NCBI RefSeq assembly: GCF_014524545.1
Contig: NZ_CP053557.1
Span: 186,001 to 250,000, forward strand
Direction: 5' to 3'
Origin: Exiguobacterium sp. Helios
GTDB lineage: Bacteria; Bacillota; Bacilli; Exiguobacteriales; Exiguobacteriaceae
DNA length: 64,000 bases
Made by a program: the position numbers and the translations under genes
Shown: piece after piece, positions 3,695 through 54,765 of the stretch
How the letters are laid out: each line of letters starts with the position of its first letter
Position numbering within the stretch: the first letter of the stretch is position 1
The notes under the pieces: model-generated
Seen by the model: only the letters and a program-made list of their open reading frames with translations
What the model was told of the DNA's origin: nothing
Databases searched by the model: none

Positions 3695-5228
3695 ACACAT
3701 GTTAGGGATTGATATCGGGACGACGAGCACCAAAGCCGTACTCTTTACGACAAAAGGGGAAGTCGTCGGACAAACGAATGTCGGTTATCCGCTGCATACC
3801 CCGAATCGTTCGACGGCGGAACAGGATCCGGAAGAAATTTTCCATGCCGTGCTCGAAAGCATCCGGTTGATGACGAAACAACATCCGACGGAGCAACCGA
3901 AGTTCGTCGCCTTCAGCAGTGCGATGCACAGCTTGATTGCGATGGATGAACACGATCAACCGCTGACCGCCTGCATCACGTGGGCTGACAGCCGGAGCGA
4001 AGTCTGGTCGAACCGAATCAAGGAACAGTACGGTTACTCGATTTATCACCGCACCGGAACTCCGGTCCATCCGATGTCGCCGCTCAGTAAGATTTGCTGG
4101 CTCGTCGAAGAACATCCGGACATTGCCGCGCGAACGAAAAAATACATCGGCATCAAGGAATTTGTCTTCCAGCGTCTGTTTGGACAATACGTCATCGACC
4201 ATTCACTCGCTTCAGCGACCGGTTTATTCAACATCCATGATCTCGAATGGGATGCGGAAGCGTTGCAGGTCGCAGGCATTGATGCAACCAAATTGTCGCG
4301 ACCGGTTTCGACGACGACGTCCTTTACCGACATGTCAGCGGATTATGCCAAACAAACCGGCTTGAATCCGGCAACACCGTTTCTGATCGGGGCAAGCGAC
4401 GGCGTCCTGTCGAATCTCGGCGTCAATGCGATCCGGAAAGGCGAAATCGCCATTACGATTGGAACGAGCGGCGCCATCCGGACGATCATCGACCGTCCGC
4501 AAACGGATGAAAAAGGCCGGATCTTCTGTTACGCCTTAACCGAAAACCATTGGGTCATCGGTGGACCGGTCAATAACGGCGGCATGGTCTTACGCTGGAT
4601 TCGTGACGAACTGGCCTCGGCGGAAGTCGAGACCGCGAAACGTCTTGGCATTGATCCATATGCCGTCCTGACGAAAATCGCCGAACGCGTCCGTCCGGGA
4701 TCAGACGGTTTACTGTTCCATCCGTATCTGTCGGGCGAACGGGCTCCGCTTTGGAACCCGGATGTCAGCGGTTCGTTCTTCGGCTTGACGTTATCGCACA
4801 AAAAGGAACATATGATTCGGGCCGCCCTGGAAGGTGTCATTTATAACTTGTACACTGTCTTCCTGGCGTTAATCGAATGTATGGATGGTCCGGTCACACG
4901 GATTCAGGCAACCGGGGGGTTCGCCCGTTCTGAAGTGTGGCGTCAAATGATGGCGGATATTTTCGAGTCAGAAGTCGTCATTCCGGAAAGTTTTGAAAGT
5001 TCATGTCTCGGGGCCTGTATTCTCGGATTGTATGCGACAGGGGAAGTCGATTCGTTCGAGGTGGCAGCAGATATGATCGGCGATACACATCGCCATGTGC
5101 CGAATGAGGAAGCAATGCACGAATACCGTCAGTTGTTACCGATCTTCATCAGTTTGGCGCGCGTTCTCGAAACCGATTACCGACGCATCGCTACGTATCA
5201 ACGGGGTTTGATTCAAAAAGAAATTTAA
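3687..5228 (+). CDS. gntK: Gluconokinase (FGGY family)
   Basis: 513 residues. The N-terminus GIDIGTTSTKAVLF is the FGGY phosphate-binding motif. GIASDGVLSNLGV-like and TGGFARSEVWRQMMADI segments belong to the C-terminal ATPase lobe and the FGGY signature. It phosphorylates gluconate to 6-phosphogluconate with ATP in the cytoplasm, feeding the gnd product downstream. Its start overlaps the end of gntR, pointing to translational coupling, with AAAGGAG 11 nt upstream. Confidence 0.92.
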   Translation: MTEHMLGIDIGTTSTKAVLFTTKGEVVGQTNVGYPLHTPNRSTAEQDPEEIFHAVLESIRLMTKQHPTEQPKFVAFSSAMHSLIAMDEHDQPLTACITWADSRSEVWSNRIKEQYGYSIYHRTGTPVHPMSPLSKICWLVEEHPDIAARTKKYIGIKEFVFQRLFGQYVIDHSLASATGLFNIHDLEWDAEALQVAGIDATKLSRPVSTTTSFTDMSADYAKQTGLNPATPFLIGASDGVLSNLGVNAIRKGEIAITIGTSGAIRTIIDRPQTDEKGRIFCYALTENHWVIGGPVNNGGMVLRWIRDELASAEVETAKRLGIDPYAVLTKIAERVRPGSDGLLFHPYLSGERAPLWNPDVSGSFFGLTLSHKKEHMIRAALEGVIYNLYTVFLALIECMDGPVTRIQATGGFARSEVWRQMMADIFESEVVIPESFESSCLGACILGLYATGEVDSFEVAADMIGDTHRHVPNEEAMHEYRQLLPIFISLARVLETDYRRIATYQRGLIQKEI

Positions 5229-42932: not shown

Positions 42933-42948
42933 CGTTCCACGTGAAACA
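42933..42948. promoter_or_regulatory. parS site upstream of walR
   Basis: CGTTCCACGTGAAACA differs from the ParB-binding consensus TGTTNCACGTGAAACA at one outer base. It lies about 10 nt downstream of the walR -10, about 18 kb from dnaA. Confidence 0.8.
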
Positions 42949-52366: not shown

Positions 52367-52993
52367 ATGATCCAGATGAATTTCCGTTTTCATTCTCACG
52401 AAAAAAAGCCCTATTCTTTCTTTTTAGAATATACGGAACCATTCGCTAAGGAACGACTGGCGGAACAATTACATGAACAGGTCAATGCCATGAAGGAAAA
52501 CCGTCCCGTCGTCCTCGTTTGTATCGGTTCCGACCGATCGACAGGTGACTCTCTCGGACCGCTCGTCGGTACTTTTTTGGAAAAAAACCGACCTGCGAAC
52601 ATGCATGTCTATGGGACATTAGCCAAACCGGTCCATGCATTGAATCTGGCCGAAACCATTCATTCGATTCAAACGACACATTACCGTCCGCTCGTCATCG
52701 CCATCGATGCCTGTCTCGGCCGCCTTTCAAGTGTCGGTCATGTCTTCTTCTCGGAAGGTCCGCTTGCTCCTGGTGCCGGTGTCCAAAAAGAATTACCGGC
52801 TGTCGGTGATTTTAATATTAAAGCTGTCGTCAATGTCAGTGGCTTTATGGAAATGATGATCCTTCAAAATACACGCCTCCATCTTGTTTATGCGTTGGCT
52901 GAACTCGTCGCTGATAGTTTTGCCTTGCTCGATACGAAATTAGCAGCTGAGACAACACGTACGACCATCTCCTTCACACCACGTTCAATTTAA
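52367..52993 (+). CDS. yyaC: YyaC-like (DUF1256) protein
   Basis: 208 residues from the ATG at 52367 (AGGAG 8 nt upstream); a second ATG at 52376 also has a good site. DUF1256 features: VLVCIGSDRSTGDSLGPLVGTFL and VIAIDACLG and GALGAGVQKELPAVGD-like SEGPLAPGAGVQKELP, the fold of spore germination protease. In B. subtilis YyaC is a sporulation protein next to spo0J. Here it is on the plus strand, convergent with parB, as in Bacillus. Its role in a non-sporulating host is unknown. Confidence 0.9.
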   Translation: MIQMNFRFHSHEKKPYSFFLEYTEPFAKERLAEQLHEQVNAMKENRPVVLVCIGSDRSTGDSLGPLVGTFLEKNRPANMHVYGTLAKPVHALNLAETIHSIQTTHYRPLVIAIDACLGRLSSVGHVFFSEGPLAPGAGVQKELPAVGDFNIKAVVNVSGFMEMMILQNTRLHLVYALAELVADSFALLDTKLAAETTRTTISFTPRSI

Positions 52994-53078: not shown

Positions 53079-53843
53079 TTAATCTTCTTCAGATAAAAGC
53101 AGTTCGAGAATTCGGTTTAAATCGTCCTCGTCCGTAAAATCAATTTCGAGTTTTCCAGCTTGTTTCGTCATCTTAATGCGGACAGTCGCCCCAATCCGTT
53201 CCCGTAACGTTTCTTCGATGAAATCCAGTTCGGTTGACTGCTTAGTTACCGGACGCACCTGTTTTTTTTCACGCAACTCCTGTTCGAGGCGCCGGACATT
53301 CCAATTTTCACGCATGACACGTTCCGCCATCCGTTCGATCTTCAGTGGATGCTTTAAGGATAATAAAGCCCGTGCATGTCCCATCGATAACCGTTCTTCC
53401 ATGACGGCTTGCTGGACCTCAACCGGTAACTGCAGTAAACGGAGACTGTTCGTGATGTGGGAACGGCTTTTTCCGACCCGGTTCGCAAGCTCTGCCTGTG
53501 TGATGTTAAACTCTTCGAGCATCTCGGCGTACGCCATCGCTTCTTCAATCGCACTCAAATCGGCACGTTGGATATTTTCGATCAATGCCAGTTCCATGAC
53601 ACGGGTTTCATTCGCTTCAATAATCAAGACCGGAACACGATTAAATCCGGCTTGTTTTGCAGCTTGATAACGTCGTTCGCCGGCGATGATTTCGTAAAAC
53701 CCCTCACGTGGACGAACGACGATCGGTTGAATCATTCCATGGCGTGTCAAGGAGTTGGCGAGTTCTGCCAACGCTTTCTCGTGGAACTGTTTCCGCGGTT
53801 GCCCCGGATTCGGCCGGATTGCTCCAATCGGTATTTCATTCAT
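53079..53843 (-). CDS. parB: Chromosome partitioning protein ParB, short N-terminus
   Basis: 254 residues. It starts directly at the NTPase domain (IRPNPGQPRKQFHEKALAEL; IIAGERRYQAAKQAG is the CTP-binding GERRY/F box), followed by a helix-turn-helix (ITQAELANRVGKSRSHITNSLRLL) and a C-terminal dimer domain ending RILELLLSEED. TAGGAGAGA 5 nt before the ATG fixes the start. Compared with B. subtilis Spo0J (282 residues from memory) the first ~20 residues with the LGKG...NALF ParA-contact peptide are missing. No parA gene is next to it. It should load at the parS sites. Confidence 0.95.
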   Translation of the reverse strand: MNEIPIGAIRPNPGQPRKQFHEKALAELANSLTRHGMIQPIVVRPREGFYEIIAGERRYQAAKQAGFNRVPVLIIEANETRVMELALIENIQRADLSAIEEAMAYAEMLEEFNITQAELANRVGKSRSHITNSLRLLQLPVEVQQAVMEERLSMGHARALLSLKHPLKIERMAERVMRENWNVRRLEQELREKKQVRPVTKQSTELDFIEETLRERIGATVRIKMTKQAGKLEIDFTDEDDLNRILELLLSEED

Positions 53844-53884
53844 GCTAATCTCTCCTAAACGTAGCGGAAGGCACGACCGCTAGT

Positions 53885-54721
53885 TTACGGACGTGCCTTC
53901 ACGATGCGGATCCGCACCTCGACATATTCTTCACAATCCACTTCTTCTTTTTCGACCGTCAAACCGGTCCGTTCAATCATATCGACGGAATCACGAATCG
54001 TGTTCAATGCAATTCGTGTATCCCGGGCAAAACTTTTATGACGTTTTTTAGGAACTTTTGGTGTCAACAACCGTTCAACCCGTTGTTCCGTCTCTTTGAC
54101 GTTCCATTCCCGTTCAATGATTTCAATCAAAACCTGAAGCTGTAAGTCAGCTGCTTTTAACGGCAGGAGGGCCCGCGCATGACGTTCCGTGATTTTCCGT
54201 TGTTTCAGAGCTTCACGAACCGTTTCCGGTAACCGAAGCAAACGAAGCTTATTCGCAATCGTCGACTGGCTCCGTCCGAGTCTGCGCGCCAACACTTCCT
54301 GTGTGATTTCTTGCATGGCAAGCAACCGCGCGTATGCTTCGGCTTCTTCGATTGGTGTCAATTCTTCACGTTGTAGATTTTCGATGAGTGCGAGGGCAGC
54401 CGTCGTCTCGTCTGTCATCTGTTTAATGATAGCGGGAATCGTCTCCCATCCGAGCGATTGAACAGCCCGAAAACGACGTTCGCCGGCGATGATTTCATAT
54501 CCTTCGCCTTGTTTTCGGACGACAATCGGTTGCAGTAAACCATGTTCTTCAATCGTAGTCGCTAGTTCGGTAATCCGTTCCCCGTCAAAGACGGTCCGCG
54601 GTTGGAACTGGTTGGCGACCAATTCCGTTAACTTGAGCTCACGGACGGTATCTTGTGGATCCAGCTCTAGGGAAACGGTTTGTCCTCCCTTACCGAGCAG
54701 TTTGGCAATTGCATTCTTCAC
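53885..54721 (-). CDS. noc: Nucleoid occlusion protein Noc
   Basis: 278 residues from a GTG at 54721 with GAGGT 8 nt upstream. This start gives MKNAIAKLLGKGGQ, lining up with the membrane-binding amphipathic start of B. subtilis Noc (MKHSFSRFFGLGEK), whereas the ATG 21 nt earlier has no RBS. ParB-type CTPase (IIAGERRFRAVQSLGWE), HTH (ITQEVLARRLGRSQSTIANKLRLLRLP) and a C-terminal domain with SFARDTRIALNTIRDS. It binds its own DNA sites and blocks Z-ring assembly over the nucleoid. It is 41 bp upstream of parB. Confidence 0.95.
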   Translation of the reverse strand: MKNAIAKLLGKGGQTVSLELDPQDTVRELKLTELVANQFQPRTVFDGERITELATTIEEHGLLQPIVVRKQGEGYEIIAGERRFRAVQSLGWETIPAIIKQMTDETTAALALIENLQREELTPIEEAEAYARLLAMQEITQEVLARRLGRSQSTIANKLRLLRLPETVREALKQRKITERHARALLPLKAADLQLQVLIEIIEREWNVKETEQRVERLLTPKVPKKRHKSFARDTRIALNTIRDSVDMIERTGLTVEKEEVDCEEYVEVRIRIVKARP

Positions 54722-54749
54722 GTTGGTGTACCTCGCCTTCATCAGTCAT

Positions 54750-54765
54750 CGTTTCACGTGAAACG
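54750..54765. promoter_or_regulatory. parS site upstream of noc
   Basis: CGTTTCACGTGAAACG is a perfect 16-bp palindrome with the exact GTTTCACGTGAAAC core of parS, in the 48-bp gap between noc and rsmG. Confidence 0.92.

Follow-up and report, generated by a model that had tools for sequence, protein, structure and literature searches.

A chromosomal ParB without Soj and without the ParA-contact peptide in Exiguobacterium sp. Helios and its family

The noc-parB locus and its ParB

The window analyzed in this study is a 64,000-nucleotide stretch of the genome of Exiguobacterium sp. Helios (C1:186001-250000). The assembly, with an estimated completeness of 100%, comprises C1 (3,042,310 bp), likely the complete chromosome, and C2 (110,633 bp), a plasmid-like second contig of 110.6 kb. 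The spo0J-type gene parB (53079..53843, minus strand; 254 aa) was assigned from its open reading frame and Pfam domains, and the closest solved structure to its product is chain 6sdk, Stage 0 sporulation protein J. Its paralogue noc occupies 53885..54742 on the minus strand as the longest open reading frame, with a TIGR04285 score of 356 bits (cut-off 315); besides the start at 54742, a GTG at 54721 with a plausible ribosome-binding site, as read from the sequence, is a likely start of Noc. Only 41 bp (53844..53884) separate the two genes at the position that soj occupies in relatives; the parB ribosome-binding site lies in this gap, as does part of a strong hairpin. The gene order is rsmG-noc-parB without soj, with a yyaC-type gene adjoining parB, and the order in Bacillus subtilis is presumably rsmG-noc-(soj)-parB-yyaC.

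The hairpin (53865-53903; -25.1 kcal/mol, z -3.8) runs from the end of noc into the gap, has no T-run, and is possibly an attenuator of parB. The gene adjoining parB (52376-52993, plus strand) encodes a YyaC-type spore protease homologue (TIGR02841, 202 bits); Exiguobacterium is not known to sporulate. Scanning the window for Noc-type sites with three mismatches allowed gave two matches, and as many were obtained in 3 of 100 shuffles.

The sequence AGGAGAG lies 6 nt ahead of the parB ATG at 53843. Upstream in frame there are 12 sense codons (RSCLPLRLGEIS) followed by TAG at the 13th codon; this stretch includes none of the start codons ATG, GTG and TTG and lacks LGKG and LG[K/R]G. The sequence therefore backs the ATG, as the first-pass annotation had proposed from the ribosome-binding site; it offers no start for translation from further upstream and leaves no room for the usual peptide.

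ParB_N, HTH_ParB and ParB_C were recognized in the product at 110, 127.2 and 40.5 bits, respectively, each above the Pfam gathering score. The start of the CTPase domain was placed by profile and PDB alignments: the protein begins MNEIPIGAIRPNPGQPRK..., residue 2 falls on ParB_N model position 4, and residues 2-92 align with model positions 4-95 of 95, which indicates that no sequence precedes the CTPase domain. Neither the protein nor its upstream frame contains the LG[K/R]G ParA-contact peptide. The earlier statements that ParB begins at the CTPase domain and that its LGKG-type N-terminus is missing are thus both upheld.

An ENIQR box is present, and the CTP box (GERRYQA, residues 55-61; 53661..53681, minus strand) carries Q60 in place of the R of other ParBs. 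GERR(Y/F)QA (GERRxQA) was found in all 28 ParBs of the family surveyed below, and R or K occupies this position in 170 of 170 other ParBs, comprising 90 from the sample genomes (all GERRxRA) and those of the best 80 named loci (R in 72, K in 8), two sets that may overlap in species. One of the patterns used for the named loci fixes GERR and none fixes the Q60 position. Noc of the same 28 family genomes retains GERRxRA without exception. Q60 corresponds to R82 of B. subtilis, at which, according to the accessible part of PMC4331003, the R82A substitution diminishes activity with spreading still possible. Clamp function could therefore be weakened here, since the glutamine sits where R82A is partly defective. 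The equivalents of E78 and E111, the glutamates required for CTP hydrolysis in B. subtilis (PMC8494293), are retained in all 28 family ParBs. Residues 89-95 read ENIQRAD throughout the family and ENxQRE[D/N] in most other ParBs; QRAD or QRAN occurs outside the family in one of 49 soj-bearing and one of the best 80 named ParBs, and is less distinctive than GERRxQA.

ParA homologues, parS sites and plasmids

Searching the whole genome with Pfam AAA_31 gave five matches, three chromosomal and two on C2. The chromosomal ones are MinD (TIGR01968, 370 bits), a CpsD-type tyrosine kinase (TIGR01007, 234 bits) and a protein under the MinD cut-offs, encoded downstream of an FlhF-like reading frame, that appears FlhG-like from its place and sequence. 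No chromosomal Soj was detected by the AAA_31 profile or by Soj searches of the genome, and across both contigs ParB_N is carried by ParB and Noc only, with no other ParB. Neither the soj-type parA elsewhere nor the second full-length ParB that the first-pass annotation had named as contrary evidence was found on the chromosome, and plasmid ParAs are confined to C2. With respect to the features that define a ParABS system, parB has no parA beside it and its product has no LG-R/K-G motif.

The partner genes of the two ParA-like genes of C2 are located at L010:9328-10017 and L010:10790-11578. The first partner has a C-terminal ribbon-helix-helix (PF01402) and a weak DUF3102 match under the cut-off, and the second matched no Pfam or NCBIfam model.

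Two parS sites were identified in the window by pattern scan: CGTTTCACGTGAAACG (54750..54765), a perfect 14-bp core between rsmG and noc, and CGTTCCACGTGAAACA (42933..42948), a full match to GTTNCACGTGNAAC. Perfect GTTNCACGTGNAAC matches on C1 are present at 97917, 228934, 240751, 251462 and 288072. Relative to an open frame recognized as DnaA-like by motif (C1:247245-248700), these five cores lie at approximately -149, -18, -6.5, +4 and +41 kb, and together they span about 190 kb. At one mismatch or fewer, the genome contains 13 parS sites versus 2 for the reversed control pattern. An SMC frame of 1204 aa with both SMC_N halves is located at C1:2151138-2154626.

An exact parS (TGTTTCACGTGAAACA) was also identified on C2 (C2:40165-40180; L010:4165-4180), about 350 bp upstream of a probable rep gene, whose product has a Pfam match under the cut-off, a homologue annotated as replication initiator, and 87-89% identity to the rep proteins of three Exiguobacterium acetylicum plasmids. 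Perfect parS cores occur on four of eight Exiguobacterium plasmids, namely C2 and these three (L133, L134 and L135), each of which has one or two; the plasmids of E. aurantiacum, E. alkaliphilum, E. mexicanum and Exiguobacterium sp. S3-2 have one-mismatch sites only. Assuming 47% GC, a plasmid would be expected to contain 0.0005-0.0008 exact 14-mers by chance; the degenerate pattern used in the search raises this value 16-fold. Profile searches found no ParB_N protein on C2 and no ParB_N (ParB-CTPase) on any of the eight plasmids. Searching with the rep protein gave 23 non-Exiguobacterium plasmids, 11 of which were scanned for parS: a perfect core was found on a Jeotgalibacillus plasmid of 603 kb, and the other 10 contain none in 4.28 Mb. 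Four rep-region spacers share parS within a 16-28-bp stretch, repeated palindromes and pieces beside rep, suggesting that the spacers are related but much diverged. The palindromes near rep and parS are 22-31 bp long (in C2 at about L010:3521-3548 and 4455-4476; also in L133-L135), with six copies in one spacer, that of L133, and they are possibly the centromere or operator of the plasmids' own Par modules.

Distribution of soj and the peptide in Bacilli

Among 299 Bacilli genomes searched with ParB, 297 gave a match, and 273 of the same set matched the Soj of a Bacillus-like sample genome at 1e-10. Two genomes (G123 and G124) without a ParB match, in which Soj reached only 8.5e-39 and 6.9e-43, were set aside. 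The best Soj E-values are bimodal: 228 genomes have 1.1e-106 or lower, and 69 have no match at 1e-10 or one of 2.7e-38 and weaker. The family set, 14 genomes of the genus (Helios included) and 14 of a sister genus, belongs entirely to the latter group: no Soj match in it is stronger than 2.7e-38, whereas every soj-bearing genome has one of 1.1e-106 or lower. In 7 of the 28, one weak Soj-like match was all that passed 1e-10. In every family genome, noc and parB are 36-46 bp apart with nothing between them, and ParB starts at the CTPase domain.

The parB loci of 118 genomes, namely all 69 Soj-less and 49 of the 228 soj-bearing ones, were read after duplicate loci had been dropped. All 49 soj-bearing loci have soj within the parB locus, and the 28 family loci share the soj-free arrangement of the window, which confirms the soj-less gap reported by the first-pass annotation. 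Ahead of the CTPase domain, LG[K/R]G was present in all 49 soj-bearing loci and in none of the 69 Soj-less ones. The comparison of ParB N-termini across relatives that the same annotation had called for therefore shows soj and peptide to be concordant in 118 of 118 loci. A first, stricter motif pattern produced 18 false discordants, all of which were removed by LG[K/R]G, a form near the published one.

The 69 Soj-less genomes consist of the 28 of this family, three genera of 20, 17 and 3 genomes, and a single genome. The 20-genome genus is presumably Staphylococcus, and four sampled relatives of the same family retain soj. The 17-genome genus is presumably Streptococcus; 15 of its 17 genomes gave a single ParB-like match, which indicates that Noc is absent there. 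The single genome was taken as Planococcaceae-like on the strength of its ParB, which shares 65% identity with Lysinibacillus alkalisoli ParB. An R-to-Q change at the CTP box as a general consequence of ParA loss was rejected, the arginine being kept in all 41 other Soj-less sample ParBs.

On a tree of the ParB core, both traits (soj and peptide) change five times, and each Soj-less genus with more than one genome forms one side of a branch. Well-supported branches force only two of the five parallel losses. On this tree, one soj-bearing row with a long branch (L129) falls in with the family, a placement flagged by the program as possibly false. The sign test for independent losses had low power, with two supported pairs (p 0.5).

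A scan of named genomes was evaluated for its best 80 loci, 77 of which have soj in the locus. LG[K/R]G is present in 71 of these 77, and the remaining six have variants such as GLGKKGLNAFF and ALGQGLNALF. The three loci without soj among the best 80 belong to L. alkalisoli, a Jeotgalicoccus and Limosilactobacillus equigenerosi, and the peptide is missing in all three. No Soj match was found in the Jeotgalicoccus and Limosilactobacillus equigenerosi genomes, whose completeness is not stated, and the best match in the L. alkalisoli genome is a 37%-identical ParA (3.5e-42). The L. alkalisoli ParB (L153:3429-4256) starts MDKLTTGANAFFNDK, with MDKLTTGANAFF in place of MAKGLGKGIGALF of Lysinibacillus fusiformis, and so seems, from its sequence, to carry a half-decayed ParA peptide after soj loss. 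The Planococcaceae-like Soj-less genome retains NAFF at the same place. As read from these two proteins, such decayed peptides suggest that soj may have been lost first.

A probable ParA-free ParB and its relation to known systems

The missing soj and peptide, the intact CTPase, HTH and dimer profiles, the parS cluster, the SMC gene and the co-loss in several other lineages make it quite probable that the protein is an orphan, ParA-free chromosomal ParB, a ParA-independent CTP clamp loading SMC at parS. It would bind parS near oriC, close as a CTP clamp and then slide, with the clamp serving as a loading platform for SMC, and would no longer drive or regulate a ParA motor. We infer that clamp loading may still work and, by analogy with Spo0J and the ParA-less streptococci, that SMC loading may be the retained function. 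Loss of soj would have come first, followed by decay of the peptide without selection. In Myxococcus xanthus, removal of the first 21 residues of ParB abolished ParA binding and left partition-complex formation in place, as described in the available part of PMC12462528. GERRxQA fits a relaxed constraint on the clamp CTP cycle after ParA loss.

As a counterpoint, MinD, the CpsD-type kinase, the FlhG-like protein and plasmid ParAs are still encoded in the cell, and one of these ParA-superfamily ATPases could partner ParB via a different surface, so that segregation would remain ATPase-driven. There is a precedent in ParA-less Streptococcus pneumoniae, in which CpsD interacts with ParB and CpsD phosphorylation alters ParB mobility; however, the accessible text of the same report (PMC4574921) notes that no DNA binding by CpsD was found and that, being absent from unencapsulated strains, it is probably not a true ParA. 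Moreover, the lost peptide is what contacts the known ParA pocket, no new N-terminal extension has been gained, and the plasmid ParAs are not constant, given that one weak Soj-like match is all that 7 of the 28 family genomes contain at 1e-10. We regard a replacement partner as improbable, although all three chromosomal candidates are encoded in this genome.

Slightly less credible still is that ParB is degenerating and forms no working clamps, its job being done by Noc or SMC alone. Replacement of the conserved arginine by glutamine in 28 of 28 genomes, at a position where Spo0J R82A is partly defective, would agree with such decay, but ParB remains 81-98% identical to the window protein in the 13 other genomes of the genus, its three domains exceed the Pfam cut-offs, every one of the 28 family ParBs has the equivalents of E78 and E111, and parS persists around the dnaA region. 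That soj or the ParB N-terminus exists and was missed through an annotation or assembly artefact is scarcely conceivable: nothing was found in its favor, and it is contradicted by the occurrence of the arrangement in all 28 genomes, the in-frame TAG 13 codons upstream and the negative genome-wide searches.

A more speculative extension of the ParA-free reading, which we consider rather doubtful, is that the Exiguobacterium ParB, no longer tied to ParA, now loads SMC as an all-purpose clamp whose CTP cycle has been retuned (GERRxQA), and that it serves both the chromosome and its large plasmids, some of which would borrow the host's ParB-SMC loading. If true, parS plasmids without their own ParB-CTPase would use the host ParB without the risk of cross-talk to their own ParAs.

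ParB-parS and SMC without ParA have been reported for S. pneumoniae and Staphylococcus aureus (Jalal and Le, 2020; PMC7333895, accessible part). A 2025 PNAS survey (PMC12704722) describes orphan ParBs, defined as ParB-CTPase homologues outside a parAB operon and often without the motif, and finds LG-R/K-GL strongly enriched beside parA (P<1e-16); as worded in the accessible portion, this definition covers the window ParB. The novelty was accordingly overrated in the first-pass annotation, both ParA-less ParBs (Streptococcus, Staphylococcus) and the correlation of motif and parA being already in print, and the present finding is clearly a family-wide case of the published co-loss pattern. The word Exiguobacterium is absent from the main text of that survey as accessible, and titles and abstract openings gave no literature on ParB/ParA or parS/plasmid in Exiguobacterium. 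Within the partly accessible literature searched, the family itself, the GERRxQA change and the plasmid parS sites were not found in print.

That soj and the peptide have repeatedly disappeared together indicates that ParA is the only partner served by the peptide, and that ParB-parS is retained in its absence. The family represents a natural test of the role of ParB after ParA loss, with MinD and Noc present, and its unusual CTP-box change makes it worth a bench test: a natural glutamine at a position that is partly tolerant, by analogy with R82A, may be a handle on how far a CTP clamp can weaken yet load SMC.

Compared with known systems, the window ParB resembles those of S. pneumoniae and S. 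aureus in being ParA-less, and LG[K/R]G is likewise absent from the presumed Staphylococcus (20) and Streptococcus (17) sample genomes. In contrast to them, this family is a separate lineage that has kept MinD and Noc, and it has GERRxQA where 37 of 37 of those ParBs have GERRxRA. B. subtilis Spo0J has three domains in common with the window ParB, but possesses Soj, the LGKG peptide and R82, whereas the window ParB lacks Soj and the peptide and has Q at the R82 position. Noc, the adjoining ParB paralogue, is likewise without the ParA peptide, but carries GERRxRA rather than GERRxQA, and against the Noc model TIGR04285 the window ParB reaches 239 bits, below the cut-off of 315.
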